Positions 1 through 13,320 of a stretch of DNA of 21,405 bases are shown piece after piece. The first letter of the stretch is position 1; every line of letters begins with the position of its first letter. A program made the position numbers and the translations under genes. This stretch comes from a virus: positions 1 to 21,405 of the IMG/VR virus record IMGVR_UViG_3300012096_000089. One strand, 5' to 3'. Below the pieces are notes generated by a model that saw only the letters and a list, made by a program, of their open reading frames with translations, did no database searches and was not told the DNA's origin.

Positions 1-896
1 CTGGCAAAAACCAGGGAGCCATGATGGCCCGGCGGCACGGTCACCGAGAGAACGAGCCCCGGCGCCGGGGTAGGGGTTGGCGTGGGATTTGGCGTGGGGC
101 TGGGAGTTGGACTCGGTGTCGGCGCTGGCGTGGGAGTGGGGGCCGGTGTCGGAGTAGGCGCAGGTCCTCCCTGCGAGGTTGTCGAGTAGCTGTAGACGTA
201 GCCGTGCTGTAGTCCATCCGCCTCCAGATAATCCCACAGAATCGATCCCAGACCGTTTCGCCCAAAGCCCGGCCCCCAGGAGTTGAGAATCGTCACGTAC
301 TCGCGGTCATAGCCAACGGCGCACACCTGGTGGTATCCACTAGTTGCCGGTCCGTGGCCGCTCTGCCAGCCGAAGTCAGAGGGTAGCAGCAGGGCAATCA
401 CGGCGGGCTGTCCGGAGGCGATGCAGGCTTTGATCTCCTCGCGGAACGGGCCCGGCTGCTGGGTGACGAAGGCATAGGAGGCGACGACCTTCTCGGTGCC
501 ACTTGCGAGGAGGGGCGTGCCACGATCGTGGCACAACTGGAGCACGAGCCGGCTATCGACACCATTCTGCCCCGTTCCGCCTGCCTCACGATAAAGAGAG
601 AGCCAATTGAAGACATCCCATGATCCCTGGTTGTGTTGGGTATCGATGCTGCAGAGTCCGCAGGTAGACGCAGCCACGCAGGCGCCAGTGTTGCCCTGAT
701 TGTAGGGCTGGCCGGTCACCCATCGCGTCAGGTCGGCGGTCTCGGGCACGCCCGCAGCTAGCATTCCGGCAATGGCGGGATGGTCCCGGAGGGCGAAGTC
801 GCGAGGGTCTGGATGCAGCCGCAGGGAGCCGGTGCCGAGCCAATGCGGCGGCACCGGCGCCAGGCCGGACTGATAGCGGATAAGCGAGTCGGTCAT
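1..896 (-). CDS. Papain-like (C1A-type) cysteine peptidase with Pro-Thr linker, 3' end off the window
   Basis: Open from ATG at 896 to the left edge (298 codons, no stop), so the C-terminus is missing. The papain signature is complete. Gln67 lies six residues before the nucleophile Cys73 ([11 protein letters not shown]), followed by His189 ([11 protein letters not shown]) and Asn205 ([10 protein letters not shown]), each in the spacing and context of the C1A family. Residues about 243-279 form a Pro-Thr/Ala/Ser repeat linker, and a new domain begins after it ([13 protein letters not shown]). No signal peptide is seen. ATGA overlap with the upstream IPT/TIG gene implies translational coupling. 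It is a clear paralogue of the peptidase at 2358-3059. Inference: a virion-associated or lysis-stage peptidase tethered through the linker to a binding domain. Known C1A enzymes cut proteins, not peptidoglycan, so the target is unknown. Confidence 0.88.
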
Positions 897-1591
897 GGCG
901 CCACCTGAAAGGCAAAGCCGGAGGTATGCAGCCCGTCAGCGCGGCGGATATCGAGATCGCAGGACCCGGGCGACAGGGAGGGCACGAGGATTACAATCGC
1001 GCCGTCCGTCCATGCCTGAATGGATACTGGCTGGTGTCGAATCCAAACGCTCCCACGGGCAGCGCCAAACCCCTGCCCTAGAATAGTGACCACATCACCA
1101 GGGCGGACTGTCGACACGCGGCCGCCCGTCGCATCGACGACCCACGTCTTCTGCGGAAGAAAGAGGCCCCCCGAGATCGCCGGGTAGGGAACCCCCGCCG
1201 GATAGACCACGATCGGGAGACCGACAGCCAACACCTGCGAGCCGATGTCCACTTCGACCGGCGAGGGCGGCGGCGTCCCCGCCGGCAGAGGCGGCACTGT
1301 CACCGAGATCCCGGTGGCATTCGGCTGTAGATTGGTCGCCGGCACGCCGCTGAACTTGACGCTGGTTGCTGCCAGAAGCCCCGTCCCCTCGATAATCAGC
1401 GTGTCCCCCGAATGGATCTGCGTCGTATGGTTGCGGTTGGCGTCCCGGTAGCCGGTGATCAGCCCTGGTGATGGAACGGGCGGCGGCACTGGTGGCGGCA
1501 CTGGTGGAACGGGCGGAACAGGCGGTGGCGGCAGCACGGCGCCAGGAACCAGCGCCGGCCCGATCGTATACATTTGACCGCCGATCATCAC
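893..1591 (-). CDS. Proline-rich protein with two IPT/TIG immunoglobulin-like domains
   Basis: 232 residues from ATG 1591. A polyproline stretch (about residues 17-42, PPPPVPPVPPVPPPVPPPVP) is followed by two tandem IPT/TIG-like beta-sandwich units. The first is around residues 58-125 (SGDTLIIEGTGLLAATSVKF) and the second around 160-230 (RPGDVVTILGQGFGAARGSV). Such Ig-like folds are common on phage tail and head surfaces and in adhesins, where they bind carbohydrate. The stop overlaps the start of the left-edge peptidase (ATGA), linking the two genes. The start is uncertain. GGTGATC before GTG 1594/ATG 1591 resembles an extended Shine-Dalgarno. However, the frame stays open upstream to 1699 and a better AAAGGAG lies there with only CTG (1687) or ATT available. 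Likely a surface adhesin; no enzymatic motif seen. Confidence 0.82.
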   Translation of the reverse strand: MMIGGQMYTIGPALVPGAVLPPPPVPPVPPVPPPVPPPVPSPGLITGYRDANRNHTTQIHSGDTLIIEGTGLLAATSVKFSGVPATNLQPNATGISVTVPPLPAGTPPPSPVEVDIGSQVLAVGLPIVVYPAGVPYPAISGGLFLPQKTWVVDATGGRVSTVRPGDVVTILGQGFGAARGSVWIRHQPVSIQAWTDGAIVILVPSLSPGSCDLDIRRADGLHTSGFAFQVAP

Positions 1592-1699
1592 CTGATCACC
1601 AAGTTGCAGCGTAACTGGCGCAGCGGCGCGCGGACGGGCGGCTTGCCGGAACGCCGGCAGCCGGGGAGGGTGTGCGTGTGCGAACAGGAGAATCTCCTT
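1592..1699 (-). other. Gap that may encode an N-terminal extension of the IPT/TIG protein
   Basis: 108 bases between two minus-strand genes, open in the frame of the IPT/TIG gene right back to the TGA at 1700-1702. AAAGGAG sits directly after that stop. The first start-like codon at good spacing is CTG at 1687. The predicted residues just before ATG 1591 (APVTLQLGDQV) look like ordinary protein and run smoothly into MIGGQMYTIG. It may be coding with a non-AUG start, or simply untranslated leader. Confidence 0.4.
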
Positions 1700-1900
1700 T
1701 CAGTGGATCGAGAAGAGGATGTCGCTCACAACTTTGGCGACGGCCTCCGGATCATTGGAAGTGGCCGCCTTGGCGCCATCTTGGAAGCGGCCGGCGAGGG
1801 CCAGATAGCCTTCCGTCTTGATGTGATTCTTGAGTAGCGACGCCAACTCATGCTGCACCAAGCGAGCGCCGAAGAGCTTGAGAATGAAGACCAGTTGCAC
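1700..1900 (-). CDS. Small conserved-looking hypothetical protein, 66 aa
   Basis: GTG start at 1900 is chosen because AGGAG lies six bases upstream (AGGAGACACCCGTG), overlapping the stop of the preceding two-TM gene. The protein begins with a hydrophobic stretch (QLVFILKLFGARLVQ) and continues as a soluble amphipathic segment (HELASLLKNHIKTEGYLALA), ending in SDILFSIH. No family is recognised. It sits between a small membrane protein and the IPT/TIG gene, so it may belong to the same lysis or adhesion module, but nothing in the sequence fixes its job. Confidence 0.72.
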   Translation of the reverse strand: MQLVFILKLFGARLVQHELASLLKNHIKTEGYLALAGRFQDGAKAATSNDPEAVAKVVSDILFSIH

Positions 1901-1909
1901 GGGTGTCTC

Positions 1910-2050
1910 CTAGATCAGTCGCGATAGGGCCACCATACCGATGAGAAGCGCAAGCAGGGGGGCCAAGTGGCCGATGAGTGTCAGGACCACGCAGAGAATG
2001 AACACGATCAGGGCCAGAATCCAGCCGGCCGAGACGGGTTGAATAGTCAC
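1910..2050 (-). CDS. Two-TM micro-protein, holin candidate, 46 aa
   Basis: Translation starts at GTG 2050, which overlaps the TGA of the upstream gene (GTGA). The product is 46 residues and almost entirely membrane: TM1 about residues 9-27 (GWILALIVFILCVVLTLIG) and TM2 about 29-44 (APLLALLIGMVALSRL), with a very short N-terminus and an Arg near the C-terminus. Two close hairpin TM segments match the topology of class II holins or small pinholins, which open the inner membrane at lysis. Its place between a TM/coiled-coil protein and two peptidase genes makes a lysis role plausible. It could equally be a small virion or superinfection membrane protein, since size and topology alone do not prove a holin. 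Confidence 0.75.
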   Translation of the reverse strand: MTIQPVSAGWILALIVFILCVVLTLIGHLAPLLALLIGMVALSRLI

Positions 2051-2361
2051 TTTTTCTCTCCTGTGGGGGCAGATGGATCGGGAGTCGATGCCATGATCGC
2101 CGGGAGTACCGAGGCGGCTGATTTCGGAGAAGCGACAACCGCCGCCGCTGCCGCTGCCGCGGTGGCCTGCGCTGCCGCCGCTGATTGCGTGAGAGCCAGC
2201 AACTCGGCCATTCGGCCGTTGATCGTGATCTGGATCTCCCGCACATCCGCGCGCGTCTTTTGGATCTGCTGCGAGTTGATTCGGCTGTTGATCGTTGCCG
2301 TGATCGCCGCTATTGTGGCAGGGGTTACGGCTATAATCAGATCGAACAGGTGACTGCTCAT
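2047..2361 (-). CDS. Membrane-anchored coiled-coil protein with Ala-rich tail, 104 aa
   Basis: ATG at 2361 overlaps the stop of the peptidase gene (ATGA), and this decides the start although the frame is open further upstream. The N-terminal hydrophobic segment (about residues 5-24, LFDLIIAVTPATIAAITATI) is followed by a helix likely to form a coiled coil (INSQQIQKTRADVREIQITI, to about 60). Next comes an alanine run encoded by GCN repeats and a charged end (TGEKK). One TM plus a heptad-like helix is the layout of many phage holin-accessory or membrane-scaffold proteins. It is translationally coupled on both sides, peptidase upstream and two-TM micro-protein downstream. No recognised family; the role in lysis is inferred from context only. 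Confidence 0.75.
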   Translation of the reverse strand: MSSHLFDLIIAVTPATIAAITATINSRINSQQIQKTRADVREIQITINGRMAELLALTQSAAAAQATAAAAAAAVVASPKSAASVLPAIMASTPDPSAPTGEKK

Positions 2362-3059
2362 GGGGTATCCGTGGCAGTGTAGGAGTACGTGTCCCCATTC
2401 TGCAGGTTGTCCGCGAGCAGGAAGTCCCACGGGATCCGCCCGAGGCCGTAGCGACCCCAGCCATTGCCCCAGGAGTTGGCAACGATCGCGTTGGCGGGAT
2501 CGTAGCCAATGAGGCACAACTGGTGATAGGCCGGCGTGCGCGGACCGGCGCTATCCCAGCCGAACTTCGACGGCAGCCGGCAGGCGAGAATGCAGGGACG
2601 GTTCGCGGCCAGCGATGCCTTCAGCGTCGATACGAACGCCTCCGGCTCCTGTGGCGCGAAGTGGTAGGAGGCGATGCGGTGTCGAGCCTGCCTCCCGACC
2701 ACGCGCAGGCCGGTATCCTGCGCATACTCCAGAGCGGCGCGAGCCGGCACTCCCTCACGGCCGTTCCCACCCACGGAGTGATAGGCCTCCAAAAATTCAT
2801 AGACTCGCCAGGCGCCACGGTCGATCTGGTCCTGAATGCTCTCCATCAGCGCTATCGAGGCCATCACACAGCAAGGAATCGTCCCCTGGGTATAGATCGA
2901 CTTGATCAGCGGCGCCAGCGTGTAGGCGTCAGGAACCCCAATCTCCGCCTGTGCGGCCACGCCAGGGATGTGCTCCATGCGATAGTCGCGCGGGTCGCGC
3001 TGGTGGGGGACGGCGCCCGTGGCATAGTCGCCCCAGTTGCGGCTACTATGCGCCCGCAT
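2358..3059 (-). CDS. Papain-like (C1A-type) cysteine peptidase, 233 aa
   Basis: A compact papain-fold peptidase with an intact catalytic set: oxyanion Gln58 (YTQGTIPCC), nucleophile Cys64 six residues on, His179 (AYHQLCLIGYD) and Asn195 (IVANSWGNGWGRYGLGRI). Two cysteines stand side by side at 63-64; alignment with its paralogue at 1-896 makes Cys64 the nucleophile. The N-terminus shares DPRDY/DPRDF with that paralogue, supporting the ATG at 3059, which overlaps the upstream gene by 14 bases. No signal peptide, long propeptide, linker or added C-terminal domain is present, unlike the paralogue. Known C1A enzymes cleave polypeptides. A role in host surface degradation, virion maturation or lysis is inference. 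Confidence 0.9.
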   Translation of the reverse strand: MRAHSSRNWGDYATGAVPHQRDPRDYRMEHIPGVAAQAEIGVPDAYTLAPLIKSIYTQGTIPCCVMASIALMESIQDQIDRGAWRVYEFLEAYHSVGGNGREGVPARAALEYAQDTGLRVVGRQARHRIASYHFAPQEPEAFVSTLKASLAANRPCILACRLPSKFGWDSAGPRTPAYHQLCLIGYDPANAIVANSWGNGWGRYGLGRIPWDFLLADNLQNGDTYSYTATDTP

Positions 3060-3252
3060 TGGACTTGTCCGTCACTTCCGCCTGCGCCAGGACATTCGGA
3101 ATCAGCGGCGTCAGGTCGGTTGGATAGAGATTCTGCGGCAGGTTGATGACCACCTGGCCGGAGGGCATCGGTTGCCCATCCACGATCTTGGAAACGCGAA
3201 ACTCAACGGCGAAGCTGGTGATGACGTACTGTACTTCCTGCTCCTTGTCCAA
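3046..3252 (-). CDS. Small hypothetical protein, 68 aa, TTG start
   Basis: The frame is open from 3306. TTG at 3252 is preferred because GGAG lies about eight bases upstream (GGAGAGAGATTCTTG), just past the stop of the fibre gene at 3266. The product begins MDKEQEVQYVITSFAVEFRV and looks like a small soluble beta-rich protein (QVVINLPQNLYPTDLTPL) with no TM segment and no cysteines. It lies between the coiled-coil tail fibre and the papain-like peptidase and overlaps the latter. No family recognised. A fibre chaperone or peptidase partner would fit the position, but this is speculation. Confidence 0.7.
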   Translation of the reverse strand: MDKEQEVQYVITSFAVEFRVSKIVDGQPMPSGQVVINLPQNLYPTDLTPLIPNVLAQAEVTDKSNAGA

Positions 3253-3265
3253 GAATCTCTCTCCT

Positions 3266-4843
3266 CTAGCTGAATGCCCCGTTGCTATACACGGGGACTG
3301 ACCCAATGCTATTGCCGTTGGCGTCGAACACCTCCAAGGCTTTCAGCACCGTGCCCGGCGTGGCCAGCGTCGTCTTGGTCACTGCGTTCCCAGCGCCGAG
3401 GCCAGAGACCGCGAGTACCTTGTGCAGCCCCTTGAAATCGAGTAGGTCATTCGTCTGCGCCACATCCTGCAGGACACCGGACTGCATGGTCTGGAGAACC
3501 CAATCCGAGGTAACGCTGCCCGGCGTCGCGTTGCTCTGGATCCACCTCTGACTACCGATCTGCACGGCGGCCCCCGTGCTGTCCCCGCCATAGACCTGCA
3601 GCCCGGCTCCGAATCCGGCGGCCGGCACGCCGGAGGAGAGCTGGTGGCCCAGGCGCAGTGCAAAGCTCGGCGCGTTGTTGACCGCGTCGAGGAAGGTGCT
3701 GATGATCTGTCCGGGCCCGGTGATCTTATACACACTCACGCCGCCGACCTGGAAATCGAGGAACACGTTGGTGAAGTCGGCCTGGTTGGCGCCGAAGTGA
3801 GTGCCGCCGGCGGCGCCGTTGAACCCGGCAACGCCGGAGGAGAAGTTCGGGCGGCTGGCCGTGCTGGCCTGGCGCGGCACCGAGTAATAGCCGGCCGGCG
3901 CGTTCGCCCGAAGCTCCCCCGAAGGGTCGCCGTAGAGAGTCACCTGGCCGGCGCCCGCCACGCGGTTGACCAGCGCGATGGCCGTGGAGATTGCTCCCGC
4001 CGTGTTGGAGGTAAGCCAGCACTGCAGGTTCCCCGCCTCCTGACCCACGCCCGCCGCATCGGAGAGGAAAATTTGCACGCCCGTGCCGAAGCCCCCCACA
4101 CCTACTCCGCCTCCCGAGATGCCCCAGAGTTGCAGGCAATGAGACACGCCATTCGTGACAAGCGAGGGATCAGAGATGAAGAAGGCAACCTCCCCAAGGC
4201 TATTGAACTTGGCGCGGACCTGATTGGCGATCTGGTCCGTGAGATAGAGGTTGGGCCCGGTGACGGTGTGCGGCGGGCTGCCGGTGTTGTCGGTGCTCCA
4301 GGCGTAGCGCCCATCCATACTCAGGTCATAGGCCGGCGCGTTGTTGATCCGCACGAATCCGGTTAGCGTGCCGCCGGCCAGCGGTAGCGCGGCGTTAGCG
4401 ACCGCATCTGTATTCGCGAGGGCCTGATACAGGAAATTAAAGTGAGTCTGACCGGCCGGATAGAAGAACGGCACGCTCGGCACCGCGCCCGGAACCGCGC
4501 CAGGGAAGTCGTGGGCGGCGGCCTCCGCGACCTGCCGCTTGACGATCGCCTGCTCCAGCGCCTCGCGCTCCTGCTGAATCTGCTCCAGCACCGAGACCGC
4601 GTGATCCCAGCCCTGCGCCAGGAGGTCCCGCTGGCGCTCGTGCTCGGCCGCCTGCGCGTCGGCGTAGGCCATCGCCTGCCGTGCGGCATCGGTGGCCGCC
4701 TGGAGGTGCACCGAGCGGTTGACGAAATCGGCCCGCAGCGCCTTGGCCTGGGCGATGACGTGCGCGCCGACCTGCTTCACTTCCTCGGCCTTGTCGGCTC
4801 CATTCCCAGTCGCCGGGCGCACCCGGAACTCTGACAGGCTCAT
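3266..4843 (-). CDS. Tail fibre protein with N-terminal coiled coil, 525 aa
   Basis: ATG 4843 (MSLSEFRVRP) is chosen over ATG 4864 because GGAGG lies eight bases before it. Residues about 15-110 are strongly helical and heptad-like (QRDLLAQGWDHAVSVLEQIQ, EREALEQAIVKRQVAEAAAH), suiting a trimeric coiled coil. A linker rich in Pro and Phe follows. The rest is a Gly/Ser/Asn/Thr-rich beta structure with fibre-like segments (NAALPLAGGTLTGFVRINNA; GQIISTFLDAVNNAPSFALR). The phrase ALPLAGGTLTG is common to many phage tail fibres. No catalytic motif or intramolecular chaperone recognised. It probably forms a receptor-binding fibre or spike at the tail tip. Confidence 0.85.
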   Translation of the reverse strand: MSLSEFRVRPATGNGADKAEEVKQVGAHVIAQAKALRADFVNRSVHLQAATDAARQAMAYADAQAAEHERQRDLLAQGWDHAVSVLEQIQQEREALEQAIVKRQVAEAAAHDFPGAVPGAVPSVPFFYPAGQTHFNFLYQALANTDAVANAALPLAGGTLTGFVRINNAPAYDLSMDGRYAWSTDNTGSPPHTVTGPNLYLTDQIANQVRAKFNSLGEVAFFISDPSLVTNGVSHCLQLWGISGGGVGVGGFGTGVQIFLSDAAGVGQEAGNLQCWLTSNTAGAISTAIALVNRVAGAGQVTLYGDPSGELRANAPAGYYSVPRQASTASRPNFSSGVAGFNGAAGGTHFGANQADFTNVFLDFQVGGVSVYKITGPGQIISTFLDAVNNAPSFALRLGHQLSSGVPAAGFGAGLQVYGGDSTGAAVQIGSQRWIQSNATPGSVTSDWVLQTMQSGVLQDVAQTNDLLDFKGLHKVLAVSGLGAGNAVTKTTLATPGTVLKALEVFDANGNSIGSVPVYSNGAFS

Positions 4844-4891
4844 CTCTGCATCCTCCGCAATCATCTTACCACAAACGCAGAGCTCGGGGCA

Positions 4892-5827
4892 TCAGGCGGT
4901 ATTCGCCAGCAAGCCGTTCGCCGCCAGGGCCGCGCGGATTGCCGTCAGGGCAGCCTTGACGGCGACCATGTCCGCCTGGGCATAGAGGGCGCCGGCGGCA
5001 ATCCCGGATACCCCTGCAGCAGAGGCGTTGGCCTGCTGCACGACGGGCATGGCGCCATACCAACCCTGCTTCTGGCCGACCGCGGTGCCCCATTTGGTTC
5101 CGGTCGTGGTATCAAGGACGAAGTCGCGGCCATTGGGAGCGATGGCCACCTGCAGCGCCAGAGAGCTATCCTTGACCTCCATCATATTGGCCGTCTGGCC
5201 GGCGGCTGCAGTAAGTGTCAGGCCTTTCTGCGTGCTGATCATCGGCTGGACATCAAGTTGACCATCCCAGACGCCGCTGACCGCTCCGAGCCCCAGCGCC
5301 ACGCGGCTGTTGTTGCTGCCCACCGACTCAATGGCAAGAAACGTCTGGCCCGTCTGGCTGTTGTTGAAAAAGATCGCTGTCGTTGGATCGAGAGTGCCGC
5401 TGTCCGGGTAGACGCCCGCAATCCCCCAGGTCATGAGCGCCCGCGTCGGGACGGGTGCGACGGGGTTGTTGACAGACATCACCAAATTGGCAAGGAAGGT
5501 CTTGTCGGATGCAACGCGCGTAATGTATTCATCCGCGCAGGTCGTATCGGCATAACCGGCCTGCGAGACGCCCCAGATCATGTTGGCCGCCGATGTCGCC
5601 CCCGGCATGACAGGGGCACCCACCGCTGTGGAAAGTAGAAAGGCTGTCCCCGATGGATCGATACGACCCTGCACCGCCCCCGTCTCATCCCCCCATTGCA
5701 GGTGCGCCGCCGTCTGTCCCGCCGAGTGCCGCTTCAGATTCAGCGCAACAACCGTATCTGTCACCGGCTGAATGGTATTCTGCAGCACGGCGCCGGGGTC
5801 CTGGTAAATGCCTTCAAGGTAACTCAT
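4892..5827 (-). CDS. Tail fibre-like protein, 311 aa
   Basis: ATG 5827 has an excellent AAGGAGGG four bases upstream. The N-terminus (MSYLEGIYQDPGAVLQNTIQ) is related to that of the next fibre gene (MSYLSVLVNPGTEFRNAIQP), suggesting a shared attachment domain. The middle is beta-rich with short repeats. The C-terminal about 70 residues (KWGTAVGQKQGWYGAMPVVQ, then an Ala-rich helix ALTAIRAALAANGLL) match a tail end I know from many phage fibre-type proteins. Role: tail fibre or tail-surface receptor-binding protein. Adjacent fibre genes upstream and downstream indicate a cluster of alternative or co-assembling fibres. Confidence 0.83.
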   Translation of the reverse strand: MSYLEGIYQDPGAVLQNTIQPVTDTVVALNLKRHSAGQTAAHLQWGDETGAVQGRIDPSGTAFLLSTAVGAPVMPGATSAANMIWGVSQAGYADTTCADEYITRVASDKTFLANLVMSVNNPVAPVPTRALMTWGIAGVYPDSGTLDPTTAIFFNNSQTGQTFLAIESVGSNNSRVALGLGAVSGVWDGQLDVQPMISTQKGLTLTAAAGQTANMMEVKDSSLALQVAIAPNGRDFVLDTTTGTKWGTAVGQKQGWYGAMPVVQQANASAAGVSGIAAGALYAQADMVAVKAALTAIRAALAANGLLANTA

Positions 5828-5842
5828 GATGCCCTCCTTGTA

Positions 5843-6793
5843 TCAGACGATCTGCCATGCCGAGCCATCCGAAACCAGCTTCACGGCTGCCTTCGGGCTG
5901 GTTATGTCATAGGGCGCGGCCTCGCCGTCGATGGTCTGGCCTCCCGTGGTGCCGATGTGAACAGCGTTCGCGGTGAGGTCGGTTTTCTTGGCCCCGAATT
6001 CCCTGCCAGTGTGGCCCACCGCAGTCGGAAGCGTGAGCGTGAAGGCCCCACCGCTCGCGTCGGCGAGGACATAGTAATCGGTGTAGAGCAAGGCGTAATT
6101 GGCCGACTTGGATGTAATGGCCATGTTGGCCAGCAGAATGCCATCATTTAAATTGAGCGGCGTCGCGCCCCCTGTCGTGTATAGCCCCAGGTTGATCAGG
6201 GACTGACGGAGGTCATCAGTCGCCGCCGGTCGATTGACTGCCGTCGCGCCCAGGAATCCAATGGCCGCCGCGCCGCCTAGCGCCTTGAGACTCAGGCAGA
6301 GTCGGCCAGGCGCACCTGAAGTATGGTCGGCGACCTGGAACTCCATCTTGCCCGCATAGGTGGCGTTCAGGCCGATATCCCACGCCGGCGTGATCGAGGC
6401 CACCAGGTGGCTATTCTCCGTCGTATCTGTCGACTGGAGGAAGAAAAACATCTGCGCGGTATGCTCTTGGAACTCCACATAGGAGCTTAGATGCCCGGCG
6501 GCATCGAATGAGCCCACGATCAATGGCGGGGCGTTGGTGTTGATCGCCCCGTTAATGATGCAGGCAGCATCGTTGGGATTGAAGGCCGTGATCTCGGTGT
6601 TGACTCCAACGAGACCGGGGGGATAGACCGCCAGTAGAGTATTGGCGAAGTCGTAGGTGTCACAATGGAAAATGCGGGCATTGGAGGTCGGCGAATGCGG
6701 GCTGATGCGCAGCCCCTCGACGTTATCAAGCAGGGGCTGAATGGCGTTCCGAAACTCGGTGCCCGGATTGACGAGAACGGAAAGGTAACTCAT
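5843..6793 (-). CDS. Tail fibre-like protein, 316 aa, hybrid of neighbouring fibre domains
   Basis: ATG 6793 is preceded by AAGGGAGG. The N-terminal about 35 residues resemble those of the fibre at 4892-5827. The C-terminal 85 residues (232-316) align without gaps with residues 187-271 of the fibre at 6804-7619; I count 56 identities by hand. The gene thus joins the N-terminal module of one neighbour to the C-terminal module of the other, a sign of domain shuffling or partial duplication. The C-terminal module (LADASGGAFTLTLPTAVGH, then TTGGQTIDG, ending VSDGSAWQIV) is a beta-rich tip type common in phage fibre-like proteins. No enzymatic motif. Likely receptor-binding. Confidence 0.84.
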   Translation of the reverse strand: MSYLSVLVNPGTEFRNAIQPLLDNVEGLRISPHSPTSNARIFHCDTYDFANTLLAVYPPGLVGVNTEITAFNPNDAACIINGAINTNAPPLIVGSFDAAGHLSSYVEFQEHTAQMFFFLQSTDTTENSHLVASITPAWDIGLNATYAGKMEFQVADHTSGAPGRLCLSLKALGGAAAIGFLGATAVNRPAATDDLRQSLINLGLYTTGGATPLNLNDGILLANMAITSKSANYALLYTDYYVLADASGGAFTLTLPTAVGHTGREFGAKKTDLTANAVHIGTTGGQTIDGEAAPYDITSPKAAVKLVSDGSAWQIV

Positions 6794-6803
6794 CGCGCCT
6801 CCC

Positions 6804-7619
6804 TTAAGAAATCCACCAATTGGCGCCGTCGCTCACCATACGGAGGGCAGCCATGGAGCTGACCAGGTTATAGGGTGGGGCTACAGTGTCAATCGTCTGG
6901 CCGCCGGTCGTCTGGACGTGAACAGCGTTCGCCGTCACGTCGATTTTCTTGACCTCGAACTCTTTGCCGGCGTGACCTACGGCTGTCGGCAGCGTCATCG
7001 TCCGGGCGCCGCCGCTGGCGTCGGCGAGAATGTAGAAGTCGGTATAGGTGAGCGCGTAGTCCACATTCTTGGTGGTAATAGAGGGGGTCGAGCCTCCGGG
7101 AGGTAGTGCCGCCGATGGCAACACGCCATACACCTCAAACCCATCCGCTGCGGTCGCGTTCCAGGAGTTCAGATTCACGCTGCGTGGATGCCCGGCGCCC
7201 CCGCCCATCACCAGGTTCTCGCTCCGGACCTTCGCCTGCCGACCGCTCGGGTGGGTCATATCCACTGAGATCACGTTCGTGCCGTTGGTCGCGGCCGTAC
7301 CGAGCTTCGCCGAGTTGGCTGGAGGCGTGCCGGTTGTGTTCGCGGTGCCCGTGCCGTTCTGCAACAGGAAGAGGTGATTGGTACTCGAGGGCGTCAGGCC
7401 GGCGATGCTGAACCCGGCGCCTGCGACGACCTGGCCGCCAATAGAGGCGGTGCCGGCGGTCACAGTGGCTGCTAGGCCCGCGCCGATTCCGAGGGAGAGG
7501 CCGCTGATGACGAACGGCCCTAGGTCGAAGAGGCTGGCCTCTAGCAGATTCAGGTTTGCATTGTGTGCGGTGCCATCATAGACGGTGCCGATAGTATCGC
7601 CGGTGAACAAGTTAGGCAT
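6804..7619 (-). CDS. Tail fibre-like protein, 271 aa
   Basis: ATG 7619, with GAGGGG seven to nine bases upstream. The N-terminal section (MPNLFTGDTIGTVYDGTAHN) looks like a short attachment region. A Gly/Ala/Thr-rich middle (LSLGIGAGLAATVTAGTASI) is typical of fibre shafts made of small residues. Residues 187-271 form the tip module shared with the 316-aa fibre (LADASGGARTMTLPTAVGHA; TTGGQTIDT; VSDGANWWIS). The differing N-terminus and shared tip suggest the gene was assembled by module exchange. It lies between the BNR propeller gene and two other fibres. Function: tail fibre or baseplate appendage, by composition and position. Confidence 0.83.
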   Translation of the reverse strand: MPNLFTGDTIGTVYDGTAHNANLNLLEASLFDLGPFVISGLSLGIGAGLAATVTAGTASIGGQVVAGAGFSIAGLTPSSTNHLFLLQNGTGTANTTGTPPANSAKLGTAATNGTNVISVDMTHPSGRQAKVRSENLVMGGGAGHPRSVNLNSWNATAADGFEVYGVLPSAALPPGGSTPSITTKNVDYALTYTDFYILADASGGARTMTLPTAVGHAGKEFEVKKIDVTANAVHVQTTGGQTIDTVAPPYNLVSSMAALRMVSDGANWWIS

Positions 7620-7630
7620 TCGCTATCCCC

Positions 7631-9019
7631 TCACGCCCAGCTCAGGCCCCAGTCTCTACTCCGCACCTGTTGCCAGACACCCGCCTGGATATATCCTACC
7701 AGTAAAGTGGTCCCATCCGCCGCTATCTCGGCCGAGATGGTCTGCGCATCGATCCCGGTGACCACCTGGTGAGGGCTGGCGTCGATGAAGTCATTGCCGT
7801 AGGTGCCCGACCGGATGAGCTGCAGGTTGTTGGACCCATCGATGTAGAAGTAGAACGCCAACCCGTGATCGGGGCTGTTGATCACATAGGGATGGCTGCC
7901 CGTGGCTATCGCAATTGGCATAGCAGTGCTCCAGGAAACGCCTAGATCGGTGCTCTTACTGTGCAGGATGAAGACGCCATCATGCCAGATGGCGTAGAGA
8001 TTCGGCTCCTCCCATAACAGGCTTGGGCTGTTGTTGGTAGATCCCATCGCCTGATAGATCGTTCGCTCCTGCCACGTCTTCCCGTTGTCATAGGCCACCC
8101 GCCCGGTGAGCGTGTCCGGCGTCGCCGCGTAGACATAGGCGAACCAGATGGCGCCATGCTCGGGGACTTCCACCGAGGCGAGGGCCTGCATGACCTCCCC
8201 GGTCGGAGCCAGGAAGTACCGTACCTCATCCGAGGCGGACTCATGGGCGAAATCCGGCGGCGTAAAGATGAACTTGGAGCGATAGCGGGAGACCTCCTGT
8301 GCGTCATCAGTCGGGATGATGCCGCCGCTCGTGATGTAGCCGAAGGGCGGCGTGTAGGGAGATTGATTCCAGCCGGTCCACACTCCCGGATCGACCGAGG
8401 TTAGGTGACAAGTAATGAATGGGAGCCCGTTTCGCCGGGTGAAGAAGTTGAACCACTTGGTGGCCTCGGAGTTGATGATCGAGTCGTCCTGGAAGGCGAG
8501 CGCGTGACCGAACCCATTCGCCACCAGGGGGCCATTGTCTGGCACCCATGGATTGGAGGTGAGTGGCGGCTGATCGGAGAGCCAGACGAACGGCACCGTA
8601 ACCCCGCCGAGCGGTGTCGAGAAGACAAACTGACTGCTGTCGAAGTCCTTGGTAATGGAGATGAGGCCGCCGTTGAAGAAGCTGGCGCCGTTGTTGCCGT
8701 CCGGCTCGATGATGGACATAGAGGCCCATGGGCCGCCGGGCATCAAGGGCTGTTGGATGTCCACCCAGGTGAATGGGTCGCTGGGAAACGGCTTCTGCAC
8801 GAAGCGATAGACGGTCGTCCACTCGGCGTTGATCGAGATCCCGCTGTTGAGGGTAACGATGATCGCCAGAGAGGCACCGTGGATAACGCCGCCTATGGTG
8901 CTGTCGCGGGCGACGAAGATCCGGGAGGCGAGTACGGGGGCGCCGGGCGAAGAGGCGGGCCTTCCCGCGACGGCGATTCCGTCGCAACTGATCTCGCACT
9001 CCCAGACCGGTGTCGGCAT
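7631..9019 (-). CDS. BNR/Asp-box beta-propeller protein (sialidase-like fold), 462 aa
   Basis: Three Asp-box motifs are visible in the C-terminal third: AYDNGKTW (about residues 309-316), STDLGVSW (356-363) and SRDWGLSW (454-461), the last ending one residue before the stop. The S/A-x-D-x-G-x-x-W pattern marks beta-propeller blades of the sialidase/BNR superfamily. The rest is beta-rich (SDPFTWVDIQQPLMPGG, KWFNFFTRRNGLPFITCHL). I cannot identify the arginine triad or Asp/Tyr-Glu pair needed for sialidase activity, so it may only bind glycans or proteins. Position between tail-tip and fibre genes suggests a tail-borne receptor recognition or surface-polymer binding protein. ATG 9019 has GGCGGA six bases upstream. 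Confidence 0.82.
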   Translation of the reverse strand: MPTPVWECEISCDGIAVAGRPASSPGAPVLASRIFVARDSTIGGVIHGASLAIIVTLNSGISINAEWTTVYRFVQKPFPSDPFTWVDIQQPLMPGGPWASMSIIEPDGNNGASFFNGGLISITKDFDSSQFVFSTPLGGVTVPFVWLSDQPPLTSNPWVPDNGPLVANGFGHALAFQDDSIINSEATKWFNFFTRRNGLPFITCHLTSVDPGVWTGWNQSPYTPPFGYITSGGIIPTDDAQEVSRYRSKFIFTPPDFAHESASDEVRYFLAPTGEVMQALASVEVPEHGAIWFAYVYAATPDTLTGRVAYDNGKTWQERTIYQAMGSTNNSPSLLWEEPNLYAIWHDGVFILHSKSTDLGVSWSTAMPIAIATGSHPYVINSPDHGLAFYFYIDGSNNLQLIRSGTYGNDFIDASPHQVVTGIDAQTISAEIAADGTTLLVGYIQAGVWQQVRSRDWGLSWA

Positions 9020-9032
9020 CCAGGGTCCGCCT

Positions 9033-9311
9033 TCAACTCCCTGCCACGATATCGGGGCCGCCGATGATGCTGATATTGACCGTGAATGGAACCACCGTCA
9101 CGCCTCCACTATACCCCGTGGCAAACTGGCTGTCGAAGGCATGCTCCATCGAGCGCGCCAGACTGTTGCTGATGGCGTTGACCGTGTGTGGCAGGTCGTC
9201 ATGCTTCTGGGCGAAGATCTGACTTACGCGCCGCTCTACGCCGCGCAGGATCGAAGCGCGAATCTCCGCGAGAATGTCGGCGTGTGACGCTTGTTCGCCT
9301 CTGGTAGCCAT
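9033..9311 (-). CDS. Small tail-region hypothetical protein, 92 aa
   Basis: ATG 9311 lies two bases after the stop of the large tail-tip gene, so re-initiation is likely. The N-terminal half is helical and charged (ADILAEIRASILRGVERRVS, then HTVNAISNSLARSMEHAF). The C-terminal third is beta-like with glycines (YSGGVTVVPFTVNISIIGG). No TM segment or metal motif. Not recognised. Its position between the tail tip and the propeller protein suggests a small tail-tip component, connector or assembly factor. Confidence 0.75.
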   Translation of the reverse strand: MATRGEQASHADILAEIRASILRGVERRVSQIFAQKHDDLPHTVNAISNSLARSMEHAFDSQFATGYSGGVTVVPFTVNISIIGGPDIVAGS

Positions 9312-9313
9312 TG

Positions 9314-11812
9314 TCAGAATCCGTTCTCGATGTACTCGCCTGTATAGCTGGCGACATGGTAAGCGCCCTTCTCCAGCCGGGCGTGCATTCCAATCAGGCG
9401 ATAGTTGCCATAGCCCCCCAGCGTGAATGCCTGGCCGATCTTAAGGGAGGGCACCCAGGTTGCCTCGAATCGCGCCTCCCGCCGCCGCCGCCGCGTCTGA
9501 TTCCAGACGGTCCGCCCGATCCAGTTGAGCTGCGGACAGGAGAAGGTCCCCCCCACCTCCACGATCTCCGCACGCCAGCGGCCGATGTAGTTGACCGCGG
9601 CCGGGTTGAGGATGGAGGCCCAGTCGATCCACGGCGAGGAGTACTGAATGCTGCCGGTCTTCGCGTCCCCGCATTTGATGACGATGACGTTCGCCTCGGG
9701 CTCTACAGTGGTAAAGGTCACCGGGTTCCGGTAGGTCGGCAGGTGGGTCGGGTTGTTGACCGAGTCCGAGTGAGAATTGAACGTCACGGCTGGCGTGGTG
9801 AAATACTCGCGTGGGAGATAGAAGAAGGTGCCGTCGAGCCGAAAACCCGCATACCAGCCGCTGTAAAGATCCTGAATCCGCTTGATGAAGCTGGCGGCGG
9901 TGTCGCGATCGAGGGGCCGCCATCCCTGCTCCAGGTCCTGTGTCTTCTGGTGCACCCCCGTGGAGGTCTGGCCGCCCAACGGACTATTCAGCGTTGAGTA
10001 GGTGTTGGCGACATAGCCGGCGGGGAACTCCGCTGCACTGCAATCAACACCGCCCTGCTCGCAGACGAATTTCACCACGTCAATATGGCCGAAGTAGGGA
10101 GAATCGCCCGGCTTGAAGCCCGACCAGTCGCGCTGGTCGCGCAGGTAGGTATCCGCGAGCGCCTTCCATCGATCGGCGGCCGGGAAAGTTAGCCGACGCG
10201 GCGCGCCAGTCTCCACGAGTGGCGTTACCTCGATGGGCATGGTAATGCCAGTAAACCAGGGCTTGGCGCTGACAGTGTCATAAAGCTGGATCGGCAGCGA
10301 GCAGCGGTAGTAATAGGAGGCCAGCGCGAACGGAGTCTCATCGATCACCTCCGCGACCATCCGTCCCTCTCCCGGCGTCAGTCCTGCGGTGATGGTGACG
10401 TGATTGAGTGCCGATCCGGGGTTGACATCGCCCACTGTGGTAGGCGTCGTGGGATTGGACTGAAAGACCCGTGGTGTGGTGATCTGGTAGCCATAAACGA
10501 ACGGCGTCCATTCCTGCGTCAGATTCGGCGAGAGCGTCAGCACGACTCCGTACTGTCGCCGCTGGTCCGCGCTCATGATCGTGGCCGGTTTCGGGCAGTC
10601 GTTGGCGCTGTTCTCCGGAATGGTATAGCTGGGCGGCTGGGATTGCGCCGTGCCCACCGAGGACCCGTGGGTCAGATCGGCCGTGACCAGAACGGTGGGG
10701 CTCACAGAGGGCGTGTAATCGATGGTGACCGGCGGCGACTGAAGGGAGCAGGGTCCGGCCGGATAAGCAATGCGCTGAATCTGGAAGCGGCCGGCGGCCG
10801 GCGTCATCACCCAGACCAGCACGTTGTCAGAGCGAACGATGTCCCAGTCCGAACCGTCCGCGAGTAGCTTCGCGCCTCCATTCACCGTCAGAATGGCCCA
10901 TTTGCCCGAGCTGGAGTAGAGGAGCACTTGGTTGCGCCGGAACGGTATCCAGAGTAGGTTGCGGTCGTGGGCAAGGCTCTCTTGAGGCCGCACGCCAGCA
11001 TTGATGTTGCCCGTCCCTGGGGGGCTGAAGTCAGCCACCGTGAAGGCCGGGAAGACCATCTCCTTCTTCCACGCCGTGCGGTCCCCGCCAGGGGATATGT
11101 CCTTGAAGATCTCGATGGTCACATCCTTGACGCGGAGGCGAAACTGGCCGATGAAGAACTCATAGATGCAGGGGAATCCGAGCTGGGAGGTGGGATGATG
11201 CCAGCGGAAGAACAGATTGGCGTTCGCATCGAGCCGGCTCTTGCTGTGGCCGATGAACTTCCCATCCGCCGTGCTGCCGATCGGGATGACAGGAGGCGGC
11301 GTGGAAGCCGGCGGCATCGTCGCGGAGGGCTGGTAGGCGATGGTTGGCCCCTGCGTCTTTAGCGGCACTATGGTTAGATCGGTCGGCGAGGGAACGCCCA
11401 GCAATGCAGGTGGCGAACCCGGCACATCCTCTCTGGCGCCGGGGAACGAACCCGCCGGCCCCACGGGCACATGATATATGTAAGGATTATCCGGGTTGCC
11501 CTTGATCGGCGCTTCAAAGATCGATTGCGAGGAAACGTCCAGAGGGTTGACCACGATGTCTCCTGCGCCGCTTCCTGGCTGGTAGAGACGCAGGATGGAG
11601 GGAAGTGCTGCGGCTGTGTTCAGCCAGGAGGATTCGAGTTGCAGCGGGCGTAACATGAGTGTGCGCGTTGGCTCATCCGCCCACAGTCCCTGATGGGCCG
11701 CGTCGTCGGCGGGAAATCCCTTCTCCCAGAGCCGGCGCGTGGAGAGGAAATCCCAGAACCCGGGCTCGGCCAGGACAGGGATTGCGGCATCAAGAATCAG
11801 TTGCAGGGCCAC
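9314..11812 (-). CDS. Large tail-tip / baseplate-type structural protein, 832 aa
   Basis: Starts at GTG 11812 with AAGGA six bases upstream. It is the longest gene in the window and lies just past the tape measure, where siphoviruses encode tail-tip (Dit/Tal-like or central hub) proteins. The protein is beta-rich throughout, with Pro-rich linkers around residues 160-180 (TMPPASTPPPVIPIG). It carries phrases such as LFFRWHHPTSQLGFPCIYEF, a Cys pair near EQGGVDCSAAEF, and a C-terminus LIGMHARLEKGAYHVASYTG that reads like a tail-hub ending. No lysozyme, transglycosylase or peptidase motif is evident. Function assigned by size and gene order, not by a diagnostic motif. Confidence 0.82.
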   Translation of the reverse strand: MALQLILDAAIPVLAEPGFWDFLSTRRLWEKGFPADDAAHQGLWADEPTRTLMLRPLQLESSWLNTAAALPSILRLYQPGSGAGDIVVNPLDVSSQSIFEAPIKGNPDNPYIYHVPVGPAGSFPGAREDVPGSPPALLGVPSPTDLTIVPLKTQGPTIAYQPSATMPPASTPPPVIPIGSTADGKFIGHSKSRLDANANLFFRWHHPTSQLGFPCIYEFFIGQFRLRVKDVTIEIFKDISPGGDRTAWKKEMVFPAFTVADFSPPGTGNINAGVRPQESLAHDRNLLWIPFRRNQVLLYSSSGKWAILTVNGGAKLLADGSDWDIVRSDNVLVWVMTPAAGRFQIQRIAYPAGPCSLQSPPVTIDYTPSVSPTVLVTADLTHGSSVGTAQSQPPSYTIPENSANDCPKPATIMSADQRRQYGVVLTLSPNLTQEWTPFVYGYQITTPRVFQSNPTTPTTVGDVNPGSALNHVTITAGLTPGEGRMVAEVIDETPFALASYYYRCSLPIQLYDTVSAKPWFTGITMPIEVTPLVETGAPRRLTFPAADRWKALADTYLRDQRDWSGFKPGDSPYFGHIDVVKFVCEQGGVDCSAAEFPAGYVANTYSTLNSPLGGQTSTGVHQKTQDLEQGWRPLDRDTAASFIKRIQDLYSGWYAGFRLDGTFFYLPREYFTTPAVTFNSHSDSVNNPTHLPTYRNPVTFTTVEPEANVIVIKCGDAKTGSIQYSSPWIDWASILNPAAVNYIGRWRAEIVEVGGTFSCPQLNWIGRTVWNQTRRRRREARFEATWVPSLKIGQAFTLGGYGNYRLIGMHARLEKGAYHVASYTGEYIENGF

Positions 11813-11878: not shown

Positions 11879-12301
11879 ATGAAACCAATCGCCGCGCTCT
11901 TGTCCGTGTTGATCCTGGCCAATATCGCCGTTGCTGCCACGCACCGATACGCGGCCGATCAGGCCCGCATCGCCGCTCTCGAAGCCCAGATCCATCAGCA
12001 GCAGGCTCTGACTGCCGACCTGACACAGACCCAATACGACCAGAATCGGGCCAAGGTCTGGCGAGCCACCCACGGCCCCGGCGTTCAGGAAGAAGTCAAT
12101 CACTCCTATACGGCGCAGATCGCCTTCGAGCGCGCCAGCTCTGGGGATCCAGCGGCCTACGATCGACAACTCCGCGCCGATGCGAAGACAGAATCTGATG
12201 TCGCCACGTATGGCCCCGTCGCATGCGCCGCGGCCTACGCCCAGCAGTACAAGGCCGACAAGTACAGAGCAACGGCACTTCGCCGCCTGGGCTACCGCTA
12301 G
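11879..12301 (+). CDS. Exported or membrane-anchored coiled-coil protein nested antisense in the tail operon, 140 aa
   Basis: The only well-supported complete plus-strand gene. AGGAGG lies seven bases before the ATG. Residues 1-20 form a signal peptide or N-terminal anchor (Lys2, then AALLSVLILANIAVAA, with an AxA site at 17-19). A predicted coiled coil follows (ARIAALEAQIHQQQALTADL, to about 60), then a soluble helical region with one cysteine (PVACAAAYAQ). The minus-strand genes on either side leave a gap of about 485 bases that this gene fills. Its TAG shares CTAG with the tape-measure stop on the other strand. N-terminal anchor plus periplasmic coiled coil resembles Rz-type inner-membrane spanins; a moron-like host-modifying protein is the alternative. 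Neither is proven. Confidence 0.8.
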   Translation: MKPIAALLSVLILANIAVAATHRYAADQARIAALEAQIHQQQALTADLTQTQYDQNRAKVWRATHGPGVQEEVNHSYTAQIAFERASSGDPAAYDRQLRADAKTESDVATYGPVACAAAYAQQYKADKYRATALRRLGYR

Positions 12302-13320
12302 ATCCCGAAGGCGATCCGAGCATCGCGGGCAGTGAACGCCTGCCGCGCGATCGTGCCGGCGCCGCCCAGCACGCTCTTGACGAACGCATCCTCCATCTGG
12401 GCGGTGTGGGCCGATATCTCCTTGAGATAGCCAGTCTGTTCTGGGTCGCCTTTGTAGGAGATTCCAGCGCCGGCCTCGCCGCCTCCGAGATCTGCAGCCG
12501 TGGGGAGGTGCAGAAAATTGGCGAGCCGATTCAGAACCGTCGTCAGCTTGTCCACGCCTTGGATCATCAAATTCAGCAAGGGCACAACCACGGGGGAAAT
12601 GAAGCGCCCGATGGCCTCGAATAGACGGCCCATGCTAGAATGCAGCGCATTTACCGTTTGCGGCAGTGTATGCCGGAGTCCCTCGGCCACCCCGCTGAAT
12701 CCCTTGCCGACCTGACTGATGAGGTTGTCGACGTCCTTCAGGTCGCCCTTCAGCCTCGAGGGATCGATCCCGAGCGCGACTAGCCCCTGTGGTCGCCCCC
12801 TGCTGGCGCGCAGCAGGCGGTTCAGCACCTGGTCCGGATCGAGCCCGCGCGCCGCCGAGATGTCGAGCACAGTCGGCAGCAACTTCTCAATCTGGCTCTT
12901 CTGCAGTCCGAACTGCGCCGCGGTCGCCCCGAGGCCGGCAATCACGTTGTGATTGATGCCGGTGAGGTCCTGCAGGCGGTTGCTGAACTCCAGTAGCTGG
13001 CCTGTCGGGAATACGTTCCCGAGATTCTTCATCTGAAGGGCCAGACGCGCGGTCGTGGCCTCGCTCTCGCTGAACGCGGAGAGCGCCTTTCCGGCCAGCA
13101 GGAAGCCGCCCGTGACTACAGCCACCGCCGCAGCGACCAGCGCTAGCGGTCCGGTGAGGCTGACCATCACCCCTTCCAGCACCGCTCCCGCCGCCGCCGC
13201 CACGCCCTCCGCCTGCGCGTAGGCAGAGAACCCCACCGCGCCCTCGGCGAGCGCGGTATTCAGGGCCGGCGCTCCCTGCACGGAGAGTACTGTCAGGAGA
13301 GTATCGGAGACACTCGCCAT
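12298..13320 (-). CDS. Tail tape measure protein, short (340 aa)
   Basis: Position after the chaperone pair, Ala/Gly/Leu-rich helical composition and an internal hydrophobic segment (about residues 49-82, LTGPLALVAAAVAVVTGGFL) identify the tape measure. It sets tail length and is ejected ahead of the DNA. Other helical stretches include QDLTGINHNVIAGLGATAAQ and FISPVVVPLLNLMIQGVDKL. At the usual 0.15 nm per residue, 340 residues predict a tail near 50 nm, short for a siphovirus. ATG 13320 follows the stop of the preceding frame directly (TAAATG), with GGAGGGG just upstream. The stop overlaps the convergent plus-strand gene at CTAG. No peptidase or lysozyme domain is seen. Confidence 0.87.
   Translation of the reverse strand: MASVSDTLLTVLSVQGAPALNTALAEGAVGFSAYAQAEGVAAAAGAVLEGVMVSLTGPLALVAAAVAVVTGGFLLAGKALSAFSESEATTARLALQMKNLGNVFPTGQLLEFSNRLQDLTGINHNVIAGLGATAAQFGLQKSQIEKLLPTVLDISAARGLDPDQVLNRLLRASRGRPQGLVALGIDPSRLKGDLKDVDNLISQVGKGFSGVAEGLRHTLPQTVNALHSSMGRLFEAIGRFISPVVVPLLNLMIQGVDKLTTVLNRLANFLHLPTAADLGGGEAGAGISYKGDPEQTGYLKEISAHTAQMEDAFVKSVLGGAGTIARQAFTARDARIAFGI

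Follow-up and report, generated by a model that had tools for sequence, protein, structure and literature searches.

What are two papain-type peptidase genes doing at the tail end of a phage record in which no murein hydrolase can be recognized? The question is raised by IMGVR_UViG_3300012096_000089, an uncultivated virus record of 21,405 bases, taken whole (the window). Uncultured phages devoid of a recognizable endolysin are difficult to account for on the basis of sequence, and a papain-type peptidase having a conserved active site, and residing in holin-like cassettes, is a concrete candidate for the opening of the host in some of them. C1A peptidases may be enzymes with which phages open cells, of a kind so far overlooked.

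Organization of the locus

The record is linear, and is therefore probably a fragment. The minus strand carries nearly all the genes, which are ordered, moving toward the low-coordinate end, as major head protein (phrog_3922, 5e-27), tail chaperone-like protein, tape measure, large tail proteins and peptidase region. The latter is found below the tape measure and the tail-fibre-like genes (Table 1), in the tail/lysis setting that a first-pass annotation had assigned to it. The window record is an orphan. The major capsid protein has distant relatives only, and none among viral contigs; the 832-aa tail protein had no match in a search of phage records, and the relatives gave no host assignment.

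Table 1. Features of the window
Feature	Position	Strand	Description
P1, C1A peptidase	3..896	minus	ATG at 896, open to the record end, 298 aa, no stop reached; xylellain-type C1A domain ~22-242, Pro/Thr linker ~245-280, start of C-terminal part
TIG protein	893..1573	minus	Pro-rich N-terminus and two IPT/TIG domains (PF01833, 2.1e-14, two stretches)
66-aa protein	1700..1900	minus	No membrane segment by hydropathy; soluble-looking
46-aa protein, holin-like	1910..2050	minus	Two hydrophobic segments; overlaps the stop of the upstream gene
104-aa protein	2047..2361	minus	A single marginal hydrophobic segment at the N-terminus, followed by a coiled-coil-like/Ala-rich stretch
P2, bare xylellain-type C1A peptidase	2358..3059	minus	Complete, 233 aa
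68-aa small protein	3046..3252	minus	Upstream of P2, 14-base overlap
Tail fibre/baseplate-like genes	3266..11812	minus	Upstream of the cassette
140-aa protein, lone plus-strand gene	11879-12301	plus	Lies between the tape measure and the tail genes; hydrophobic segment at the N-terminus, then coil-like stretch
Tape measure	12298-13320		PHROG match; peptidase cassette placed below

The stretch from P2 to P1 is a compact late operon, in which the TGA of P2 overlaps the ATG of the 104-aa gene, and the TGA of the TIG gene overlaps the ATG of P1. The IPT/TIG protein noticed earlier between the two peptidases is recovered by Pfam, and is a possible surface-binding partner of P1. Its start at 1573 is that of the gene call, 1591 being an alternative. 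The small membrane proteins said to accompany it are of uneven quality, as the description fits the 46-aa protein, applies marginally to the 104-aa protein, and does not apply to the 66-aa protein. Holin-like denotes here, as throughout, a hydropathy profile only. In outline the 104-aa protein matches the proteins featuring a membrane segment and a coil in the cassettes of relatives. The remark that the window has no recognizable murein hydrolase holds for the genes scanned with Pfam and for five lysin-family searches.

Other features of the window may be mentioned. Tail proteins encoded by 5843-6793 and 6804-7619 (both minus) are in tandem and share a C-terminal module (ADASGG..TLPTAVGH.G.EF..KK.D.TANAVH), and those encoded by 4892-5827 and 5843-6793 have a common N-terminal start, these being tandem duplicated fibre genes. 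The product of the lone plus-strand gene is reminiscent of an i-spanin, and has no convincing match to a Pfam family; were it a spanin, a Gram-negative host would follow.

Sequence and predicted fold of P1 and P2

P1 and P2 are 40% identical over 221 aa (BLASTP, E=2e-55), a degree of paralogy which excludes chance similarity. The Gln-Cys-His-Asn set reported for both genes is aligned at all four positions (Q67/C73/H189/N205 in P1, Q58/C64/H179/N195 in P2), the oxyanion Gln, the catalytic Cys and His and the orienting Asn following one another as in papain, and the motifs QG..C, H and NSWG are found in both, as in xylellain. Profile searches score P1 above the papain-family cut-off (PF00112, 24.0 bits, cut-off 20.7) and leave P2, 40% identical to P1, under the same cut-off (17.6 bits); PHROG 16701 (peptidase) matches both alike.

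AlphaFold2 models, built from viral relatives, were obtained for P2 (pLDDT 86.6, pTM 0.85) and for the P1 domain (pLDDT 83.1, pTM 0.81). Both predicted folds are papain-like, and their top solved match is xylellain (3OIS; VIA Z 22.8, rmsd 3.2 A over 213 residues for P2; VIA Z 22.7, rmsd 2.7 A over 205 residues for P1), which ranks above Der p 1/Der f 1, papain, falcipains and cathepsins, papain-family enzymes scoring a VIA Z of about 20. Since C1A structures are the best matches, the mere sharing of the papain superfold is discarded. Membership in the Peptidase_C39_2 family (PF13529) was also rejected, because scores (19.6 and 16.7 bits for P1 and P2, respectively) are below the family cut-off of 24, and the predicted folds fit C1A structures best.

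Identity, predicted folds and profile matches thus bear out the view of two paralogous papain-family peptidases. P2 is indeed the bare enzyme. As to P1, the Pro-Thr linker is present, and the further domain thought to follow it amounts to ~18 residues before the record end; no viral contig holding the left end of the window was found. By hydropathy, neither protein has a signal-like hydrophobic N-terminus, as expected if the enzyme is released by a holin. Predicted fold and residue positions suggest that P1 and P2 are short, propeptide-less, catalytically competent xylellain-type C1A peptidases; taken jointly with the function at lysis discussed below, this is rated slightly above an even chance.

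Viral relatives

Profile scans of IMG/VR identified over 80 distinct viral C1 loci. The catalytic Q, C, H and N residues are kept in 82, 82, 83 and 82, respectively, of 83 full-length viral C1 proteins, and PF00112 matches 81 of them. Neither LysM, PG_binding, SH3 nor other recognized cell-wall-binding domains were detected by Pfam in the 83 proteins, three of which carry Cu_amine_oxidN1. Linkers followed by varied C-terminal modules are found in viral C1 relatives, and resemble the modularity of lysins. In BFVD, C1-like phage proteins are named N-acetylmuramidase, peptidoglycan-binding-like and endolysin.

The C-terminal modules of viral C1 proteins are swappable. In L113 and L108 the C1 linker is followed by a common domain (RLLD[TS]RSG.GLSGKF ... 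AGRGGIPA), a different one occurs in both L003 and L099, and L007, L012 and L111 have C-termini that are alike and belong to the copper amine oxidase N-terminal type.

Two C1 genes within one locus occur only in the window and in L151; L170, a third candidate, is apparently a single gene split in two. P1 and P2 group as sisters (support 0.99) in a tree built from 150 C1 proteins, viral and bacterial, and from this placement the pair looks like a duplication specific to the lineage of the window phage. Relatives of P1 and P2 in genome contigs (21-54%) are bacterial or archaeal genes providing no host signal, and none of the few inspected is prophage-like. One match was obtained in Chloroflexota, in a neighbourhood not phage-like, and none, at the same threshold, in Actinomycetota.

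Association with lysis-like modules

Genes in all loci, viral and bacterial, were defined by a home-made caller, and direct neighbours of C1 were monitored for small membrane-type genes (up to 160 aa). Such genes adjoin 31 of 91 viral C1 genes (34%) and 39 of 415 control genes (9%), the latter being long genes other than C1 in these loci (Fisher P=2e-8). No enrichment is seen in bacteria (3 of 69 C1 genes), and about two thirds of viral C1 genes have no small membrane neighbour. The best examples, in which small membrane genes flank C1 on one or both sides, are L003, L005, L098, L099, L108, L113 and L116, which form with L131 one clade of the tree (support 0.90). In L101 (7537-7914) and L121 (7684-7998), small lipoprotein-like genes, possible spanin-type partners, are located directly upstream of C1.

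Three siphophage records of 34-41 kb, G002 (L099), G003 (L113) and G004 (L116), have C1 in a holin-like cassette. Terminase and tail genes occur in all three, to which portal, capsid and integrase genes are added in G003 and G004. C1 was the only lysin-like Pfam match in the three records among the proteins scanned, that is, most of them, the smallest and some others being left out. In G003 and G004, C1 lies between terminase and integrase, distant from the tail module. One protein of G002 (L177-L179) matches the gas vesicle proteins GvpL/GvpF (8.4e-13).

Six lysin families were searched in twelve records. Amidase_3, M23, NlpC/P60, CHAP and GH25 were not found in records G000-G009 and G011, nor Amidase_2 in G001-G009 and G011. 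Matches were restricted to G012/L011 (amidase) and, weakly, to G010/L133 (CHAP-like, adjoining C1); the Amidase_2 search took in the L011 record and not the window, the other five the window and not the L011 record. In viruses that do have a canonical endolysin, C1 often adjoins it: genes in L011 are ordered amidase-holin-C1, and in L017 and L133 C1 is paired with a canonical endolysin neighbour. C1 therefore recurs in lysis-like modules, either alone or along with a canonical endolysin.

Function of the peptidases

The first-pass annotation had left two choices for the pair, digestion of a proteinaceous host coat or action at lysis. Both are still live, and the evidence leans toward lysis, because small membrane genes are enriched next to viral C1 genes, C1 is the sole lysin-like gene recovered by the Pfam scans of three siphophage records, and a C1 gene is found beside a GH25 lysozyme in phage THSA-485A. 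That P1 and P2 are xylellain-type C1A peptidases, active and operating at lysis, is a reading of modest confidence, a little better than a coin toss. Both would be expressed late from the tight minus-strand operon. P2 lacks a signal sequence, and its translation is coupled to that of two small membrane proteins; it most likely would build up in the cytoplasm, be freed once the holin-like protein permeabilizes the membrane, and then cleave peptide bonds in the host envelope, either as the whole of the lysis enzyme or as one component of it. P1, a duplicate copy extended by a linker and a C-terminal part and set behind the TIG adhesin-like protein, most likely would perform the same cleavage in a targeted manner, either at lysis or from the virion. 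Substrates may be peptidoglycan peptides, an S-layer, or some other envelope protein. Papain-family chemistry favours a protein coat, and the stand-alone C1 cassettes favour a load-bearing layer. Against a function at lysis it can be argued that C1A enzymes are known protein endopeptidases, that cell-wall-binding domains are missing in the 83 viral proteins, that two thirds of viral C1 genes have no membrane neighbour, and that C1 genes are found in quite different contexts in Shaeky and in jumbo phages.

These contexts are the isolated C1 genes of the jumbo phages XacN1 and FLC9, with no visible lysis neighbour, and the C1A gene which in Streptomyces phage Shaeky (L199, 5431-6291) resides inside a tRNA array; the family probably has, therefore, more than one role. 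As the Shaeky gene shows, C1A genes can also be carried about singly, as cargo. Such lone C1 genes, among tRNA or metabolic genes, would suit host-directed intracellular proteases, used for takeover, defence or inhibitor cleavage, their late position in the window being incidental. A coupled late operon including membrane proteins and a TIG protein, and two copies near each other, make this very unlikely for P1 and P2. The peptidases could rather be virion-associated tail-tip proteases that break down a surface layer made of protein (S-layer, sheath, pili) during entry; P1 in particular, because of its linker and TIG neighbour, would be the anchored form. The peptidase genes follow tail-fibre-like genes, P1 follows the TIG adhesin-like protein, C1 in L005 comes immediately after large tail proteins, and some phages (THSA-485A, L011, L017, L133) have C1 in addition to an endolysin. 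However, the location of C1 far off the tail module in G003 and G004, and the enrichment of viral C1 next to small membrane genes, render a role at entry unlikely, if less so than host-directed proteolysis.

The pairing of C1 with GH25 in THSA-485A, and with endolysins in L011, L017 and L133, also fits a narrower form of the function at lysis, in which C1 would cut S-layer or envelope proteins, and a muralytic enzyme encoded outside the record would cut peptidoglycan. This is a real possibility, of less than even probability, and contrasts with the finding of no second lysin in G002-G004. The broader proposal, that xylellain-type C1A peptidases are a widespread, unrecognized class of phage lysis enzymes, acting with a holin as sole endolysin and duplicated and specialized in the window, is doubtful and advanced tentatively. 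If true, opening of the host envelope would depend on cleavage of protein or peptide cross-links, and not on classical amidases, CHAP enzymes or lysozymes. If C1A peptidases do function at lysis, lysins would gain a new enzyme family, or protein-coated hosts would be indicated.

Comparison with known systems

Some phage records are already annotated as encoding a C1A peptidase. In the open-access literature, which was searched to the exclusion of subscription papers, no description of C1A as phage lysin, no association of C1A with lysis modules, and no C1A enzyme with peptidoglycan activity were found. Proteins of the Peptidase_C39_2 family (PF13529) share the papain-like fold with P1 and P2, and the profile match is weak. 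Xylellain, the C1A peptidase of Xylella fastidiosa (PDB 3OIS), is the best structural match for both, at 18-24% identity; its gene is bacterial, and lies outside a phage lysis-like operon. In Thermoanaerobacterium phage THSA-485A, Tsac_2838 (peptidase C1A papain) ends the tail module, and is 28-30% identical to the viral C1 relatives L113 and L007; it had no match to P1 or P2 in tblastn searches. In contrast to the window genes, it is present in single copy, directly after a GH25 lysozyme. Xylellain-type C1A peptidases have been described in Caudoviricetes (Myoviridae/Siphoviridae), and interpreted as independent acquisitions from bacteria (PMC10380794), in passages that give neither their function nor their gene context. 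The genes are of the same kind as P1 and P2. The presence of C1A peptidases in tailed phages is therefore already in print; relative to those passages, the duplicated pair and the statistical link of C1A genes to lysis-like cassettes are new here.
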